A stretch of 64,000 nt of DNA from assembly GCA_903861005.1 (NCBI GenBank), contig CAIOSP010000045.1, positions 1 to 64,000 of the forward strand. The letters run 5' to 3'. How positions within the stretch are numbered: the stretch's first letter is position 1; each line of letters begins with the position of its first letter. The notes under the pieces were generated by a model that saw only the letters and a list, made by a program, of their open reading frames with translations, did no database searches and was not told where the DNA came from. Positions 29,602 to 37,512 of this stretch are shown piece after piece. This stretch comes from an uncultured Pseudomonadota bacterium. GTDB lineage: Bacteria; Myxococcota_A; UBA796; GCA-2862545. The translations under genes were made by a program, and so were the position numbers.

Positions 29602-31908
29602 TCAGGGCACGCAGGTGCCCTGGCTCGGTCGGCACGTCAGGCTGGAGTGCTCGCCCAGGTCCCAGCGGACGTCGGCCGGGTCGCCCACCGCCAGATCGTC
29701 TGACTCGTTCTCGAACGCGTCGACGCCCATGTCGACGTCGGCCAAGGTCAGCGTGTCTACGCCTGGCGAGGTGCTGTCGAGCCCGAACCAGATCCCGCCG
29801 CCCACCGGCGCCAGGTTCAAGTGGAACGCGCCCGAGTTCACGACCAGCGACGTCGCGGCGTCCGGCTCCACCGCCACCACGCCCTGCACGGTCGCCTCGT
29901 TTGAGCTGACGACGCAGCCCGTCAGCGTCAGGCTGCCGCCGATCTGACGGATCGCCGGGCCCACGTCCGCCCGATTGGACGTGATGTGCACGTTGTCCAC
30001 CGTGGTCGAGCAGTGGTCGAGCCACAGGCCGCCCGCCGTCACGCCGATGTGCCGGAGCAGCTCGGCGCCGTCCAAGCTCACCTGCCCGCCGTGCGCCGCG
30101 ATCCCCGCGACGCCATCCGACGCCTCGTTGCCGTCGAAGGTGCCGCCGATCACGTCGAACGTCCGCACGCGCACGTCGGCGGCGCCCACGTCCCCGCCCG
30201 AGTTGTCGGTGGCGTCCACGTCGTCGAACGTGAGCGCGCCGTTCGCGCTGTCGGCCGACACGCCCGCCACCCCCGCCGAGAAGTTGGCGGTGAGCCGCAC
30301 GCGCGTCAGCGACGTCGTGATGAAGTCCTCAAGCCGGATGCCGCCGGTGACCGTCCCGCGGTTGTTGCCCACCGTCAGATCAGCCAGCACCGGCGACTCG
30401 CCGGTCAGCCAGAGCGCGCCGACGCCGTCGGACGCGCCGTTCCCGATGAACGTGCTGGTCGACACGCTCACGCTGTCCGTGGTCGCGTCCACGCCGCCCG
30501 CGCCCGCGTCCGCCTGGTTGGAGCGGAAGGTGCAGGAGGTCACTGTGAGCGAGCCGCGCGTGTCGGGCATAAACAGCGCCGCCCGTCCGCCCGTGTTCTC
30601 GGCGAAGGTGACGTCGTCCAGGGTCAGGTCGACGCCGACCGCCAGCACCGCCGACGCGCCCGCGTCCGACGTGTTCACGTCGAACGTGGCGGCCGTGATG
30701 AGCGCGTCGATCGCCGGCGTGGGGTCGGAGTCGATCACCCGCACCGGCGCGCCCACGGTGCGTGAGCGCGACACACCCCCGCCCGTCCAGTGCAGCTCGC
30801 TGTCGTGCACGTCGACCAGCGCGCCGTCCGACGGGCTGTCGCTGACGAGGTTGCGGATCAGGATCGGGTGCACCCACACGGTGGCGGGCGCGCCGTCGGC
30901 CGCGTCTGCGTAGATCGCCGAGCCGCTCTCCTCGGCCACCGCGTCCTCCACCGTCACTGCGATCGCGTCGAGCGAGGCGCCGTGCAGCAGGATCGCGGCG
31001 CCGCGCTGAGCGCGTGGGCCGCTGATCGTCAGATCGCGCAGCACCAGCGACGCCCCCGGACCCGCCCAGAAGGCGCCGCCTTCGTCCGCCGTGCCGCCTT
31101 CGATCGGTGTGGTGTCCAACGTGAGCGTCCCGCCCTGGATCAGGGCCACGCCGCCGCGTCGTGTCGGGCCCACCGCCGTGCCGGTCCCGCCTTGGAGCGT
31201 GATGCCGTCGATCGACACCGCGCCGGACGTCACCGTGATCAGGCTGCCGTCGGCCACGCCAAGGCTGACTTCGCTCGGACCACCCTGCCCGTGGATCGTG
31301 AGGTCGTGATCGATCTGGATGACGCCCGGGGCAGCGCCCGCGCACACGTAGATCGTGTCGCCAGAGGCGGACGCGGCCGCCGCCTCTCCGACGGTCGCGT
31401 AGTCGCCGCCACCGAGCACCGCGACCAAGCCCGCCTCGGTGGTGGTCGCGTCGCAGTCGTCGTTGAACCCGTTGCACTTCTCGGGCGCGCCGGGCTTCAC
31501 GTTGGGGTTGCGGTCATCACAGTCCGTGCCGCCGGTCGGCACGCTCGGGAGGCCGTCGCCGTCCGCGTCGGCGCCGTCCACGCCGTCGCAGTTCTGGTCG
31601 ATCGCGTCGCCCGCGTTGTCGGGCGTGCCCGGGCCCCGGATCGTCGGGTCGTCGTCGTTGCAGTCGGTGCCGCCGCTCGCGATGCTGGCGGCCAGGTCAC
31701 CGTCGTCATCCACGCCGTCCACGCCGTCGCAGGACGTGTCGATCCCGTCACCGAACGGATCAGGCGCGCCCGGGTAGACGCTGGCCTTGGCGTCGTCGCA
31801 GTCTCCTTGCACGGCGGAGACGCCGTCCCCGTCGGCGTCGTCTTTGAGCGGCGAACCGCACGCCACGAGCGCCAGGGTCAGCGGCCAGAGGATCGGGGCT
31901 GCGCGCAT
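29602..31908 (-). CDS. MopE-like lipoprotein with beta-helix domain
   Basis: A 768-residue predicted surface lipoprotein: lipobox in LALVAC (Cys17). Residues 25-150 hold three MopE-type Asp/Cys repeats of the form DxDGDGxxxxxGxDCDD...NxxCDGxDG, thought to bind Ca or metal ions in this family. The rest consists of repeating short strands (LTLDDVTF, LTVTSCTFRSN, VSVSTSTFIGN and similar) typical of a right-handed parallel beta-helix, seen in adhesins and polysaccharide lyases. No catalytic residues are apparent. ATG 31908 has GAGGGAG five bases upstream; the frame before it is not used. It is convergent, by six bases, with the lipoprotein hydrolase gene. Confidence 0.85.
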   Translation of the reverse strand: MRAAPILWPLTLALVACGSPLKDDADGDGVSAVQGDCDDAKASVYPGAPDPFGDGIDTSCDGVDGVDDDGDLAASIASGGTDCNDDDPTIRGPGTPDNAGDAIDQNCDGVDGADADGDGLPSVPTGGTDCDDRNPNVKPGAPEKCNGFNDDCDATTTEAGLVAVLGGGDYATVGEAAAASASGDTIYVCAGAAPGVIQIDHDLTIHGQGGPSEVSLGVADGSLITVTSGAVSIDGITLQGGTGTAVGPTRRGGVALIQGGTLTLDTTPIEGGTADEGGAFWAGPGASLVLRDLTISGPRAQRGAAILLHGASLDAIAVTVEDAVAEESGSAIYADAADGAPATVWVHPILIRNLVSDSPSDGALVDVHDSELHWTGGGVSRSRTVGAPVRVIDSDPTPAIDALITAATFDVNTSDAGASAVLAVGVDLTLDDVTFAENTGGRAALFMPDTRGSLTVTSCTFRSNQADAGAGGVDATTDSVSVSTSTFIGNGASDGVGALWLTGESPVLADLTVGNNRGTVTGGIRLEDFITTSLTRVRLTANFSAGVAGVSADSANGALTFDDVDATDNSGGDVGAADVRVRTFDVIGGTFDGNEASDGVAGIAAHGGQVSLDGAELLRHIGVTAGGLWLDHCSTTVDNVHITSNRADVGPAIRQIGGSLTLTGCVVSSNEATVQGVVAVEPDAATSLVVNSGAFHLNLAPVGGGIWFGLDSTSPGVDTLTLADVDMGVDAFENESDDLAVGDPADVRWDLGEHSSLTCRPSQGTCVP

Positions 31909-31968
31909 GGAGACTCCCTCGTCCACCTGGGAGCTTCTACCATACCCGCCGCGCGGATGGCGCCCCGG

Positions 31969-33249
31969 TCAGGGGAGCACGGACGCCAGGACCTCGAACG
32001 CGCGCGCGCGATCTTCCGGCGCGACGTAGACGCGTGCGATGCTGTGCTCGTCGGCGTAGCGCTCGAACACCTGGCTCGCGTCGGTGAGCTTCTCGACCTT
32101 GGCGGTCGGCTGGCCCGGCAAGCGCATCTTCACGTAGAGCGTGCCGTCCACGTCCGCGCGGCGCGCGGCGGCGTAGCGCGACAGGCGCCCGGTGGACTCG
32201 CTGTCGATGTAGTCGATGCCTTCGCGCTGGAGCAGCGCGCGCTCAGTGTCGATGCGCACCTGCGGCAGCGTCCCGTGCCGCTCGACGACGCGACGGTACG
32301 GGGCCCGCTCGACGATACGGCGCGCCCACGGGTTCGAGGACCCACGCATGTGGGCCTCCAGGGCGACGTCGTCCAGGTACAGGTACTTGTCGAGGTCGGT
32401 GGAGATCGACCACTCGCCCGACTGCGTCACGTAGGCCTTCAGCATCTCCTCGTACACCACCGACGTGTGGTGGAAGTAGACCTGCAGGAACATGTGGTGC
32501 CGCGCGACCAGGAAGTGCTCGAACGCGTAGAGCGCGCCGGAGTCCAGGGCGAGGCAGACCTGACCGTGGGCCGTGTGCGCCGTGAGGTGCGAGACGATCC
32601 AGCGCACGTCGATCATGCCGTACTGGGCGCCGGTATAGTAGGCGTCGCGCGGCAGGTAGTCGAGGCGGTCGGCGTCGAGCTCCGACGAGATGATCTGCGA
32701 GAGCAGGCGCCGATGGTCCAGGCCGCCGTCGCGGAAGAAGTCGTCTTCCACGCGCACGTCATGGCTGATCAGCGCGGCGACGTGGCGCGAGGTGCACGGG
32801 AAGGACTGGTCGATCGCGCGGCCCAAGCTGGTGTGCTGCAGGATGGCGATCGTGAAGTCTTCATGCGACGCGTGGCCGCTGCGGGTACCCCGATACCAGG
32901 AGATCCCCAAGCCGGACACGTCGGGCATGGCGAACTCGGTGCAGTGGCTGAAGGGCCCGTGGCCGAGGTCGTGGCAGAGCGCCGCCAGACGCACGGCCGC
33001 GCGGAAGCGGGCGCGCGCGTTCGGGTCCTCGAACTGCCAGTCCCGGTAGGCGCGGTCGAACGCGGTGCCCGCGACCTGCATCACGCCCAGCACGTGGGCA
33101 AAGCGGCTGTGGGTGGCGCCCGGGAACGCCAGAAAGCTGAAGCCCACCTGCTTGAGCATGCGCAGGCGCTGGACGAAGGGCTGGTGGATCAGCTGCGACT
33201 CGGACTCGTCGAGCTCGATGGCGCCGTGGATCGGGTCGCGCACTTCCAT
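31969..33249 (-). CDS. HD-domain phosphohydrolase, dNTPase/SAMHD1-like
   Basis: A 426-residue HD-superfamily phosphohydrolase. It begins with the family opening MEVRDPIHGAIEL and continues with FPGATHSRFAHVLGV and the HD pair in AALCHDLGHGPFSH. Further family segments are SSELDADRLDYLPRDAYYTG and AYEEMLKAYVT-like (VYEEMLKAYV). These match SAMHD1/YdhJ-type enzymes, whose members include dNTP triphosphohydrolases. ATG 33249 was preferred over an in-frame extension to 33618 because GGAG lies nearby and the protein then starts at the conserved domain edge. It lies 38 bases downstream of the MFS gene on the same strand. Nucleotide substrate is not proven. Confidence 0.88.
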   Translation of the reverse strand: MEVRDPIHGAIELDESESQLIHQPFVQRLRMLKQVGFSFLAFPGATHSRFAHVLGVMQVAGTAFDRAYRDWQFEDPNARARFRAAVRLAALCHDLGHGPFSHCTEFAMPDVSGLGISWYRGTRSGHASHEDFTIAILQHTSLGRAIDQSFPCTSRHVAALISHDVRVEDDFFRDGGLDHRRLLSQIISSELDADRLDYLPRDAYYTGAQYGMIDVRWIVSHLTAHTAHGQVCLALDSGALYAFEHFLVARHHMFLQVYFHHTSVVYEEMLKAYVTQSGEWSISTDLDKYLYLDDVALEAHMRGSSNPWARRIVERAPYRRVVERHGTLPQVRIDTERALLQREGIDYIDSESTGRLSRYAAARRADVDGTLYVKMRLPGQPTAKVEKLTDASQVFERYADEHSIARVYVAPEDRARAFEVLASVLP

Positions 33250-33287
33250 GCCGTGGACTCCGTGAGCGCGGACTAGCACGGCCTGGC

Positions 33288-34502
33288 CTACAGGGCGCCC
33301 TGCGCCACCAACGCGCCCAGAAGCAGCAGCGCCGACGCGATCGCGAACGGCAGGCCCGGCATCGAGAACGGCGCGTTCGGCCCTACGCCCCAGGTGAAGC
33401 TGGCCGCGAAGAGCCCGGGCGCGATCAGGTCGGCCATGCTGCGCAGCGCGCCCGTCGCGCCCTGGAGCGCACCCTGCTCGTTGGTCGCTACGGTCTGGCT
33501 CATGGTCGCCTGCACGGCGGCGTTGGTGAAGCCTGCCGGCATCTGGATCACCAGCGCGATCCAGAACCACGTCCCGGACGGCCCGTAGGCCATCGCCGCG
33601 AACCCGATCGACCCGCACAGCAGGCCGATGCGCATGGCCCAGCGCTCGCCCAGCATACGCACCGCAGGCCCGACGAGCACGCCGCCGACCACCATGGAAG
33701 ACACGCCCACGCCGCCCAGCGCCAGGCCGACATCACGCGGCGACCAGTGCCAACGGTAGCCCGCGAACAGCACGAACATCGACGGCCACACCACGTTGGC
33801 CACCGCGCCCAGGAAGGTGACCACCGACAGCGCGCGGAGGCCCGGACGGCTGCCGAGGAAGCGCACGGCGCCCCACGGGTTGGCGCTCTTGAAGGTGAAC
33901 GGCCGACGGTTCTCGGGCGCCAGCGACTCCGGCAGCACCCACAGCCCGTAAGCAAAGTTCAACAGCGCGAGGCCGGCCGCCACCCAGAACGGGAGCTTGG
34001 GATCGCCATCCCCCAGCAGGCCGCCGACCACGGGCCCCAGGATAAACCCGAGCCCGAAGGCGGCGGACAGCATCCCGAACGCCTTGGCGCGGCCCTCAGG
34101 CGGCGTCACGTCGGCGATGTAGGCGCTGGCGGTGGAGATGTTCGCCGACGCGATGCCCGACACAACGCGAGCCGCCACCAGCCAGGCCAGGCTGCGCGAC
34201 AAGGCGATCAGGGCGAAGCTGATCGACAGGCCCAGCGTCGAGAAGAGCACGACGGGCCTGCGCCCGAAGCGGTCCGAGAGCGCGCCCAGCACAGGCATCG
34301 CCAGCAGCTGCATGGCCGCCCAGACGGTGGTCACGATGCCGGTGAAGGTGGCCGCTCGACCGTAATCTCCGCCTTCAAACTGCACGACGAGGCGGGGAAG
34401 CACCGGCACCACCAGCCCGAAGGCGAGCATGTCCAGCGTCACCGTCACGAAGATGAAGGCGACGGCAGCGCGCCGGCTGGCCTTTCCGGTCGTCTCGTTC
34501 AT
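33288..34502 (-). CDS. MFS drug/H+ antiporter, Tet-like
   Basis: A 404-residue major facilitator with about 12 membrane helices, closest by motif to the TetA/Bcr drug-export group. Visible: TVTLDMLAFGLVVPVLPRLV (helix 1 with the conserved Asp), GALSDRFGRRPVVLFSTLG (motif A), SAYIADVTPPEGRAKAFGM and GFILGPVVGGLLGD (motif C of antiporters). Such proteins export small molecules in exchange for protons; substrate cannot be inferred. ATG 34502 has GGAGA seven bases upstream. Divergent from the pseudokinase-PP2C gene, with inverted repeats between them. No drug-resistance regulator is adjacent. Confidence 0.88.
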   Translation of the reverse strand: MNETTGKASRRAAVAFIFVTVTLDMLAFGLVVPVLPRLVVQFEGGDYGRAATFTGIVTTVWAAMQLLAMPVLGALSDRFGRRPVVLFSTLGLSISFALIALSRSLAWLVAARVVSGIASANISTASAYIADVTPPEGRAKAFGMLSAAFGLGFILGPVVGGLLGDGDPKLPFWVAAGLALLNFAYGLWVLPESLAPENRRPFTFKSANPWGAVRFLGSRPGLRALSVVTFLGAVANVVWPSMFVLFAGYRWHWSPRDVGLALGGVGVSSMVVGGVLVGPAVRMLGERWAMRIGLLCGSIGFAAMAYGPSGTWFWIALVIQMPAGFTNAAVQATMSQTVATNEQGALQGATGALRSMADLIAPGLFAASFTWGVGPNAPFSMPGLPFAIASALLLLGALVAQGAL

Positions 34503-34526
34503 CCCTGCTCTCCGCCGCCCCGCTAA

Positions 34527-34546
34527 CGCAGGTCCCACGACCTGCG
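34527..34546. promoter_or_regulatory. Inverted repeat between the MFS and PP2C genes
   Basis: CGCAGGT at 34527-34533 and ACCTGCG at 34540-34546 form a perfect 7-6-7 inverted repeat, 24 bases upstream of the MFS start. A smaller hairpin (CCCCT, GTG, AGGGG) lies near 34575-34588. Either could be an operator in the divergent promoter region; no binding protein is known. Confidence 0.4.
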
Positions 34547-34621
34547 GCGGGGAAACCACATTCCGGGCGTGGGACACCCCTGTGAGGGGGGCAAGCGGTC
34601 CGACCGTGTTAACGGCGGCCG

Positions 34622-36499
34622 ATGCGCCCCATCCTCCAGACCCACGGCCTGACCCCAGGCACCACGCTCTACCACTCGGCGTTCGGCTTCGCGCGCGTCG
34701 AGTCGGCGGACGACGACGGCGTGACGTTGTCGTGGGAGCGGGACGGCGGGCACCTGCCGCGCAAGGTCCGCAACGAGAACCTCCGCCGCGTCTACTCGGT
34801 GTGCGGCGCGGACGGCTTCTTCCACCGGGCCGTCGTCAATAAAGACGCCCTCCGCACGGTCCTGCACGAGCGCCCGGCCGACGCGCTGGTCTGGCTGCTC
34901 GACGACCTCGCGGCCCCGCAGCGCCTGCGCGACATCATGGACTGGCTGGTCGGCCGCGAGCTGTTCACCGCCAAGACCTTCGTGCGGTGGTGGGGATCCG
35001 CCGAGTCGCTGGTGAAGTCCGACCCTCGCCTGTCTCTTGAGGGCGAGTGGCTGCACCTGCGCACTGAGTCCGCCCCGGCCATGGTCCAGCTGGCTCCCAC
35101 CGCGGTCGCCCCCGAGGCCGAGGAGATGGAACTCACGAGCATCGTGCAGCGCGGTCCGCTCGACGAAGAGGTCGAGGTCCACGACCACGGCACCGACGAG
35201 ATCGCGATCTTCGTTCCGCTGGCGCCCGTTCCCCTCGCTGACGCCGCCCCGCCGCCCCGCGCGCTCGCCGCGCTCGGTCGCGCCATGGCCGAGGCGCTGG
35301 CGCTCTGCCACGGGCAGGGTCGCGTCGCCAACCCCACCAGCGAGTCGTCGATCCTCAACCCGGACGGCTCGATCCGCTTTGAGGACAACGGGCCGTCGAG
35401 CGCGCCGTGGGCCGAAGAGCCCTCGCCCGAGGCCGACATCCGCGCCGCCGCTGTCGTGCTCCTCGAGGTCTGCCTGGGCCGCTCGCTCCCCGCGATCACC
35501 GACCCGGCCGAGGTCCTCCCGCACGTCCGCCACCGCGTCCCGGACCTGCCCCCGTCCACGCTCGCGCCGCTCTTCGCCGCCATGCGCGCCACGCCCGCCC
35601 AGCGCCCCACCGCCCTGGCCTGGGCCCGCCAGTGGGCCAGCGTGCAGGCCGCCGAGCTCGACCGCGCCCGCGCCTATGACGCTCAGGCCCACGTGCGCGT
35701 TGGCTACGACAGCCACATCGGCCGGGTCAAGCTGCTGCTCAGCCAGACCAACCAGGACGCGCTGTTCGTCGGCGTCCGCGGCAACCACGCGCTGCTCGTG
35801 CTTGCCGACGGCATCAGCATCGCCGACGCCGGTCGCGGCGACATCGCCTCCTGGCTCGCCGTGCAGGCCATCGCGCGCATGTGGCAGGCCGTGCCCGCCG
35901 AGCGCATCGTCGAGCAGCGCCTGCTGGACCGCGCGCTGCACCTGGCCAACCGCGCCATCTGCGACCACGCCCTGCGCGCCGCCGGCGGCGACCTCACCGG
36001 CCGTATGCCGATGGGCACCACGCTCACGGCGGCCGTCATCTCGGGCAACCGCGTGCATCTGGCCTGGCTGGGCGACAGCCGCGCCTACCTGGTCGGCCCG
36101 TGGGGCGTGTCGCTGCTCACCGCAGACGACAACGTGAGCGGCGAGCGCTTCCTGTCGTGGTGCGACGCCGACGCGCGGTCCTGGAACTCGGACGGCCACG
36201 CGCTGGTCCGCTACCTCGGTCACTTCGACGAGGGCGCGCAGCCTGCCCCCTTCCCCGCCCACCACACGTCGTTCGTGCTGCGGTCGGAGGAGCGCCTGGT
36301 GCTCTGCACCGACGGCATCACCGACTACGTCGACCCGCGTGAGGGCGAGGTGGCCGATCGCATCGGCCACGCCGCGATGAACCTGTCCCCCGACGCGGCC
36401 TGTCGTGCGCTGGTCACGGCCGCCAACGAGCGCGGCGGCGGCGACAACGCGACCATGATCATCGCCGAAGCGGACGAGCGGGGCGTCGAGCTCTGGTAG
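34622..36499 (+). CDS. PP2C-type phosphatase fused to a pseudokinase-like module
   Basis: A 625-residue fusion. Residues 1-60 are an SH3-like segment; residues 60-150 contain AKTFVRWWGSAESLVKSDPRL, resembling an accessory domain seen with GreA-type proteins. Residues 185-350 follow the order of a kinase C-lobe: ALALCHGQGRVANPTSESSI (HRD region, catalytic Asp lost), FEDNG at 253-257 (a DFG-like site), ADIRAAAVVLLEVCLGR and TPAQRPTALAWARQW. From about 360 a PP2C phosphatase: NQDALFVG, VLADGISIADAG, MGTTLTAAVI, AWLGDSRAYLV, VLCTDGITDYV and GGGDNATMII, with the metal-binding Asp residues present. PP2C dephosphorylates Ser/Thr. The pseudokinase call is by eye and could be wrong. Confidence 0.8.
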   Translation: MRPILQTHGLTPGTTLYHSAFGFARVESADDDGVTLSWERDGGHLPRKVRNENLRRVYSVCGADGFFHRAVVNKDALRTVLHERPADALVWLLDDLAAPQRLRDIMDWLVGRELFTAKTFVRWWGSAESLVKSDPRLSLEGEWLHLRTESAPAMVQLAPTAVAPEAEEMELTSIVQRGPLDEEVEVHDHGTDEIAIFVPLAPVPLADAAPPPRALAALGRAMAEALALCHGQGRVANPTSESSILNPDGSIRFEDNGPSSAPWAEEPSPEADIRAAAVVLLEVCLGRSLPAITDPAEVLPHVRHRVPDLPPSTLAPLFAAMRATPAQRPTALAWARQWASVQAAELDRARAYDAQAHVRVGYDSHIGRVKLLLSQTNQDALFVGVRGNHALLVLADGISIADAGRGDIASWLAVQAIARMWQAVPAERIVEQRLLDRALHLANRAICDHALRAAGGDLTGRMPMGTTLTAAVISGNRVHLAWLGDSRAYLVGPWGVSLLTADDNVSGERFLSWCDADARSWNSDGHALVRYLGHFDEGAQPAPFPAHHTSFVLRSEERLVLCTDGITDYVDPREGEVADRIGHAAMNLSPDAACRALVTAANERGGGDNATMIIAEADERGVELW

Positions 36500-36512: not shown

Positions 36513-37151
36513 CTACCCGATCGACTTGTAGACCCGCGCTGCGGCGACCGACACCAGACCATCCTCCTCGGGGATGTAGCCGGTGAGCGCGCCGCCGTAG
36601 ACGCAGCCGGAGTCCAGGCCAATCACCCACGGGCGACCGTCACGCTCACGCCGGACCAACCCGCGCACCGCGTCGTGCCCAAAGATCACGCGGCGCTCGC
36701 CCACGTACTGGTCGGCCCAGTGCGGCGACACGTCCTCGTCGGGGAAGCGGCGCATGGTGATCGCCATGCGAAAGGTGGTCGCCGCCAAGTCACCCGACGG
36801 GTGGACGCCCGCGTGGACGACCGTGAAGCCCGCCACGTCCTCGATCCAGGTGGGCATGGCGGCCAGGTGTGCGCGCCAGTCTGGATCGGCCGCGTCGAGC
36901 GCCGCAGCGCAGGCGGCGCCGTGCTTGTCATGCGGCCGTCGGCCGTTGACCACGTCGGCAAGGCGCTGATCATGGTTGCCGCGCACCGCAGCGCCGCCGC
37001 TCGCGGCGACCAGCTTCCACACACCCGCAGGGTCCGGCCCCTTAGTGTAGAGGTCGCCGACGTAGACCACGCGATCTGGACCGACCCGCTGCAGGAGCAG
37101 GTCGAGTTCGCGGGAGCAGCCGTGGACATCGCCGATGACGAGGGTGCGCAT
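36513..37151 (-). CDS. Calcineurin-like metallophosphatase (PrpA/ApaH-like)
   Basis: A 212-residue metallophosphatase of the PPP/ApaH-like group. All five metal-site motifs are present in order: GDVHGC, GDLYTKGPD, GNHDQRL, VVHAGVHP and FGHD. These enzymes hydrolyse phosphoproteins or diadenosine polyphosphates. The motif GDxxxKGPD is typical of bacterial PrpA/PrpB and ApaH relatives. ATG 37151 has GGAGG upstream (spacing about five bases); the upstream in-frame extension has no coding bias. Convergent with the PP2C fusion gene, leaving 13 bases between stops, so two phosphatases of unrelated folds adjoin. Confidence 0.9.
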   Translation of the reverse strand: MRTLVIGDVHGCSRELDLLLQRVGPDRVVYVGDLYTKGPDPAGVWKLVAASGGAAVRGNHDQRLADVVNGRRPHDKHGAACAAALDAADPDWRAHLAAMPTWIEDVAGFTVVHAGVHPSGDLAATTFRMAITMRRFPDEDVSPHWADQYVGERRVIFGHDAVRGLVRRERDGRPWVIGLDSGCVYGGALTGYIPEEDGLVSVAAARVYKSIG

Positions 37152-37512
37152 GGACAACCTCCTAACGTGAACCACGCGCGCACCACCGCTACACAATCAC
37201 CCCACGTCCAGCTTACGTTTTGTCCGGACGACACGGTCGACGCCCCAACCATGGGAGCGAGGGCGATGTCACCGCCCAGGAAGCCGCGATGCCCTCCCCC
37301 CCAGGGGCCGCTGGAAGTCCTGCTGACGCCGCACGCCACGCGACCTGCGGGGCTACCCCGCGCCGAGGCGTACCTGCGCCGCGCGCGCACGAACGGTGGC
37401 GGGCGCCACGCGCTGCACCCAGAGACCGTCGCGCCGGCCGCAGTTCCGCGACCTGGGCTACCGTTCACCGACGACACGTTCACCCGAGGAGCTTGCTGGA
37501 GAAGGGTTTACA
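37152..37512. other. Non-coding region upstream of the metallophosphatase
   Basis: No gene is supported in about 360 bases. Several frames are open because of high GC, but none shows consistent G/C-ended codons with a ribosome-binding site. The segment from 37190 to 37225 is locally less GC-rich (around GCTTACGTTTTGTCC) and is the likely promoter region for the minus-strand phosphatase gene. The right part may be further decayed P-type ATPase sequence but is not recognisable. Confidence 0.5.

Follow-up and report, generated by a model that had tools for sequence, protein, structure and literature searches.

How does a bacterial phosphatase come to carry part of a protein kinase that can no longer act as one, and what could such a part contribute? 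This question is raised by a gene in a stretch of 64,000 nucleotides of DNA from an uncultured bacterium (hereafter the window), for which a first-pass annotation had proposed a signalling phosphatase of the PP2C type controlled by a dead kinase or nucleotide-binding module. Our analysis confirms that the gene product is a PP2C joined to the lower half of a kinase, from which the ATP-binding half and all catalytic residues have been lost. The sections below describe the evidence for each domain, the distribution of the protein family and its neighbourhood, and then weigh what the kinase part may do.

Results

Gene and domain layout

The features of the locus are collected in Table 1. The 625-residue frame opens with an M-x-P-I start that is kept in most orthologues of the alignment. 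A Pfam scan of the whole protein matched PP2C-type families alone. In the AlphaFold model, the end of the kinase-type helix alpha-I lies about 10 residues ahead of the first PP2C strand, and the C-lobe directly abuts the phosphatase.

Orthologues fall into two length classes: one of about 600-625 aa, comprising the window genus, its nearest relative and family f4, and one of about 770-845 aa, with extra helices in place of the linker. Most family f1 orthologues have a helical stretch of about 200 aa at this position (for example, residues about 160-370 of L002), with a marginal match to ALF repeats; the window genus lacks it.

Table 1. Coordinates, strand and supporting evidence for the phosphatase gene, its domains and two neighbouring genes (window positions).
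Feature	Position	Strand	Evidence or remark
Whole gene	34622..36499	+	625 aa, start ATG, stop TAG
N-terminal domain, residues 1-148	34622..35065	+	GreA-fusion model matches; AlphaFold secondary structure
Disordered linker, residues 149-199	35066..35218	+	pLDDT below 50; orthologue alignment
Non-catalytic kinase C-lobe without N-lobe, residues about 200-352	35219..35677	+	hhalign, PDB hmmsearch, Foldseek
Catalytic loop, degenerate: ANPTSESS instead of HRDLKPEN, residues 236-243	35327..35350	+	Family counts
Alpha-F helix, residues 269-285, with invariant D272	35426..35476	+	30/30; helix in both AlphaFold models
PP2C phosphatase domain, residues 356-619, metal-site residues intact	35687..36478	+	PF13672, Foldseek 2cm1, 30/30 residues
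HD-domain phosphohydrolase gene, dGTPase-like (HD + HD_assoc_2)	31969..33255	-	Divergent neighbour, conserved
MFS gene, between HD and phosphatase genes in the window genus	33288-34577	-	Gene order

A kinase C-lobe precedes the phosphatase

The Pfam kinase model found no match in the 29 members tested, even at E 1; since this model is blind to the C-lobe, we used profile-profile comparison. With hhalign, a profile of residues 196-352 from 30 orthologues was matched to 28 kinases of the same genome with a probability of 97.8% and E 1e-12, over template positions 93 to 251, which begin where the hinge ends and extend to alpha-I. Thirty column-shuffles of the same profile reached a maximum of 0.31%, and the PP2C and N-terminal profiles scored 0.3-0.4% against the same kinases. 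When the PDB was searched with the C-lobe profile using hmmsearch, the top matches were PAK4, PknA and PknE, followed by PknB, TRIB2 (Tribbles 2) and B-Raf, all in the register given by hhalign and with E 5e-4 and up.

AlphaFold models were built from 9-sequence alignments. For the full protein (mean pLDDT 81.8; pTM 0.66), the top Foldseek matches listed were PP2C alone. To address the kinase part, residues 1-355 were therefore modelled separately; this second model has a mean pLDDT of 77.4 and agrees with the full-length one. Both models contain helices at residues 212-231, 269-285, 295-305, 311-320 and 331-346, in the order alpha-E to alpha-I. Kinases made up all of the best 50 Foldseek matches listed for the shorter model (E 9e-6 to 2e-4, probability 1.00), and the TM scores over single kinase chains, 0.35-0.45, are those expected for one lobe.

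Three partly independent tests, namely hhalign, the PDB profile search and Foldseek, underlie the fold assignment. The first-pass annotation had recognized the order of a kinase C-lobe in residues about 185-350 and had pointed to structure prediction of the N-terminal part; both the profile comparison and the predicted structure recover the lobe, with boundaries nearer 200-352. That a helical domain unrelated to kinases should resemble a C-lobe by chance is very improbable: that Pfam kinase models detect none of the order's members tested would fit such a resemblance, but the profile-profile and PDB-profile matches fall in register, the Foldseek matches are all kinases, and related proteins match PF00069 at E 5e-7 and 6.6e-6, under its cut-off.

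Loss of catalysis and conservation of the core

The N-lobe is absent, not merely degenerate. The disordered linker takes its place, and no N-lobe with Gly-loop and Lys was found in the hhalign comparison with the 28 kinases, in which nothing aligned before template position 93. The catalytic loop has lost the three residues that the first-pass annotation had reported missing, the HRD Asp, the Lys and the Asn being replaced by P238, S240 and S243 in the window protein; across the family these residues occur in 0/30, 0/30 and 2/30 sequences, and the DFG Asp in 3/30. The structural residues, by comparison, are kept in 30/30 (alpha-E His, alpha-F Asp and the Arg before alpha-I), while the APE Glu is kept in 23 of the 30 orthologues and the activation segment is shortened.

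Nucleotide binding, the other half of the original proposal, is unlikely in a protein that has neither an ATP-binding N-lobe nor the metal-binding motif. An intact but diverged kinase, or a nucleotide-binding one, was rejected on the counts for the HRD Asp, Lys and DFG Asp. It is exceedingly improbable that the lobe is an unorthodox active kinase or nucleotide-binding module: D255 still stands at the DFG Asp position of the window protein, and this D255-N-G resembles DFG in that protein only, against the lack of N-lobe, Gly-loop and Lys and the family-wide counts just given.

The lobe appears to be maintained. Between the window gene and that of a 98% identical relative, the C-lobe shows 24 synonymous changes and 5 changed codons out of 153, and the PP2C domain 31 synonymous changes and 1 changed codon out of 264. 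These codon counts indicate that purifying selection acts on the C-lobe, more weakly than on the PP2C. Identity to orthologues is 23-42% for the C-lobe versus 31-54% for the whole protein.

The PP2C domain

The phosphatase assignment made at first reading, a PP2C with its metal-site Asp residues, is well founded. PF13672 matches the window protein at E 1.2e-13, and the domain matches PstP of Mycobacterium tuberculosis both by sequence and in Foldseek (2cm1, E 7.4e-15, TM 0.86 over the target). Invariant in 30/30 orthologues are D379, D396, G397, G484-D485-S486, D502, D564, D568, D608 and N609, among them the metal-site positions D379, D396/G397, D564 and D608. With 101.1 bits against the curated cut-off of 230, the protein is not a member of the NCBIfam Stp1/IreP equivalog NF033484. 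It shares the fold and metal ligands of the Stp1/IreP/PstP PP2Cs; however, their DGMGG motif becomes DGISxAxAGxGD in this family, and its PP2C clade is separate from the six other PP2Cs of its genome.

In many PP2Cs, the Arg of motif 1 binds phosphate. In this family, its usual position (374, ungapped) is occupied by S/T/G/M, and a K or R stands at 370 in 30/30. As the motif-1 Arg is missing from its usual place, phosphatase activity is predicted and likely, but not certain.

The N-terminal domain

A GreA-associated N-terminus had been suspected, and the family bears this out: 21/29 members match PRK06330 ('transcript cleavage factor/unknown domain fusion'), with a best E of 9.7e-9, 5/29 match the GreA model PRK14720, and the window protein itself has two weak GreA-fusion matches in NCBIfam. 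An unnamed domain is common to this protein and the GreA-fusion proteins; unlike them, the window protein has no GreA domain itself in the Pfam scan of its whole length. The domain consists of a small beta-barrel (about 13-60) followed by a helical part that bears a conserved W-W motif. In hhalign, residues 9-62 scored 21.6% against RID and 23.5% against Tudor domains, with shuffle maxima of 7.4% and 0.6%, respectively, which is suggestive only of a Tudor/RID-like character for the first ~50 residues. A PDB profile search with the N-terminal domain returned chance matches only. Of 379 genomes of the phylum, 51 were found to carry the domain, each in a single copy and each belonging to the order; wherever the gene is complete, the domain sits in the phosphatase protein.

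Distribution and wider family

The genomes of the close relatives are metagenome-assembled and carry the labels Myxococcales/Myxococcota, Deltaproteobacteria or Proteobacteria. At a threshold of E <= 1e-30, the protein is present in 53 of 71 genomes of the window's class, all belonging to one order (53/63) and including 21/21 in the family. All full-length orthologues read keep the C-lobe, and they span several family-level groups. One contig, L003 (CAMCWU010000091.1), is titled Klebsiella pneumoniae although its gene content places it with the order; it probably stems from a mislabelled metagenome bin. The plasmid collection gave no match.

The search for the same architecture in other genomes, which had been proposed with the first annotation, also led to fuller relatives in other families of the phylum. 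A query of C-lobe plus PP2C found 35 further genomes outside the order. The relatives read (20/35) are open frames of 600-790 aa, 13/20 of them with an N-terminal zinc-ribbon pattern, and all 20 have a fuller kinase-like region in which HRD is replaced (e.g. HLGLTPWN, HLRLTPW). Among the 19/20 that were aligned, the APE Glu and the alpha-I Arg are both kept in 19/19. Most score against a kinase profile, the best at E 5e-15, and three tested members give weak, sub-threshold matches to the Pfam kinase model. L155 shows an apparent HRD Asp, but the remaining loop residues are absent around it, and the match could be fortuitous.

L151-L170, from other families of the phylum, combine zinc ribbon, pseudokinase and PP2C, with HRD changed to HLR/HLG and acidic inserts before the APE motif, and belong to a larger, seemingly unnamed family. 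At L076:5071-6336, an ORF of about 420-445 aa encodes a C-lobe-like part and PP2C only, with no N-terminal domain and no HD neighbour.

In the midpoint-rooted PP2C tree, the 30 order members (100/99) and the 20 others (97/91) form two groups, joined at 100/100 and apart from the genome's six other PP2Cs. Every member of this clade read carries an inactive kinase region. An inactive kinase thus appears to have become fused to this PP2C clade long ago, and the C-lobe-only form is the most reduced version. We infer that the change ran from a fuller pseudokinase to a bare C-lobe.

Such a reduction series raises the possibility that the lobe is an evolutionary remnant, a fragment of a former kinase-phosphatase fusion that now serves as a spacer or folding aid without a partner role. 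Other families keep a fuller inactive kinase where the order has only the C-lobe, and the lobe's lower identity relative to the whole protein and its weaker selection relative to the PP2C point the same way. Its presence in every full-length orthologue read, its invariant core and the signs of purifying selection speak against it, and we regard a mere remnant as unlikely, though well worth keeping in mind.

Neighbourhood

In 24 of 26 loci, the phosphatase gene has the HD-domain gene as its divergent neighbour; a homocysteine methyltransferase/MTHFR gene follows it in 16/26. In the families outside the order, no HD neighbour was found within the stretches read. In three f1 genomes (L058, L059, L060), a gene directly downstream or one gene away encodes a large Ser/Thr kinase whose HRD and DFG motifs are intact; these kinases are orthologous and are candidate partners in those genomes; the nearest kinase gene of the window is ~10 kb from the phosphatase gene. 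The kinase of L058, L059 and L060 measures 1000-1100 aa and has a long conserved C-terminal part with a P-loop-like GPAGSG.

In the window, a calcineurin-like phosphoesterase gene (ApaH/PrpE-like; 36513-37196, minus strand) is convergent with the phosphatase gene and is also found in the near relative L057. A surface-type protein with repeated DxDGDG / DCDD / CDGVDG motifs is encoded at 29602-31926 (minus strand).

Discussion

Judged from the sequence, the protein is probably a PP2C Ser/Thr phosphatase in which a non-catalytic C-lobe acts as an N-terminal docking or gating module. We favour this reading because C-lobes of the KIND type bind on their own, KIND being an independent C-lobe binding module (PMC3415841), and because N-terminal domains commonly set PP2C activity. 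It is consistent with the loss of catalysis alongside a structural core kept in 30/30, with the adjacent kinases of f1 and with retention in 53/63 genomes of the order; against it, an adjacent kinase occurs in few genomes, and none lies beside the window gene. Of the first-pass proposal, the fusion of a dead kinase module to PP2C stands on profiles, model and conservation, and control of the phosphatase by that module is plausible.

In mechanistic terms, the C-lobe would bind a partner through the surfaces that kinases use for docking, the partner most likely being a Ser/Thr kinase or its phospho-substrate. Binding would either bring a substrate to the PP2C active site or shift the PP2C regulatory helices, as the N-terminal domains of SpoIIE do; these domains gate the PP2C by docking on its switch helices (PMC5468089). 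The N-terminal GreA-fusion-type domain may be a second targeting module. The protein would then work like a KIND-bearing phosphatase or a regulated PP2C, not as a kinase.

The lobe might instead gate the PP2C active site directly and be freed by a ligand or by the N-terminal domain, with no kinase partner. The close abutment of alpha-I and PP2C strand 1 would suit such autoinhibition, as would the gating of SpoIIE by its N-terminal domains (PMC5468089) and the reported activation of RsbU by partner binding (PMC12143880). Yet the data show no contact with the active site, and at a pTM of 0.66 domain placement is unreliable; we judge it distinctly unlikely. A more elaborate extension of docking describes a bacterial counterpart of KIND: in one bacterial phylum, a PP2C clade would have captured a kinase and inactivated it, and one order would have trimmed it to the docking lobe, which would recruit Ser/Thr kinases or their substrates to the phosphatase, while the GreA-fusion-type, Tudor/RID-like N-terminal domain would place the enzyme at RNA polymerase and the HD nucleotidase gene would be a link to nucleotide control. 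As a whole, this scenario is speculative, and we put it forward as a long shot.

A close parallel to the docking or gating module is KIND itself, a non-catalytic C-lobe without an N-lobe that in PTPN13 also stands N-terminally in a phosphatase (PMC3415841, PMC6615252). KIND, however, is eukaryotic and is joined to other domains and to a PTP phosphatase, unlike the PP2C found here, and the KIND of Spir lacks a kinase-type alpha-G, which the window model has (295-305). No KIND entries were found among the matches listed from the C-lobe PDB profile search and Foldseek. KIND and the bacterial C-lobe are likely of independent origin.

Pseudokinase and phosphatase also share one chain in the kinatases of kinetoplastids and other protists, but these have two pseudokinase domains, leucine-rich repeats and a dual-specificity phosphatase (PMC2175518). 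Bacterial fusions of the Pseudomonas type likewise unite PP2C and kinase fold, but with the PP2C at the N-terminus and a kinase domain reported as a kinase, not an inactive lobe (PMC1262709). The bacterial pseudokinase families ActPs1-3, GLW, CP1, DYD and DLHK have inactive Ser/Thr kinase folds; their description mentions no PP2C, and in the architectures compared none is presented without an N-lobe (PMC12599244).

The claim that the combination is not a named family holds in so far as no paper or family model for it was found in the open-access literature, Pfam or NCBIfam, although it may have been described elsewhere; the claim is tempered by related fusions such as the kinatases and PTPN13. 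The single ingredients, namely pseudokinases, regulatory domains of PP2Cs, fusions of kinase and phosphatase, and C-lobe-only domains, all have precedents; their combination appears to be new in the literature searched.

It is not yet settled how PP2C enzymes find their targets. One that bears just the docking half of a kinase would be a natural case in which to ask whether the C-lobe can serve bacteria as a self-contained recognition module, in the way that KIND serves eukaryotes. The gradation within a single phylum, from a fuller pseudokinase down to the C-lobe by itself, offers a rare view of the stepwise reduction of a kinase to a regulatory part.
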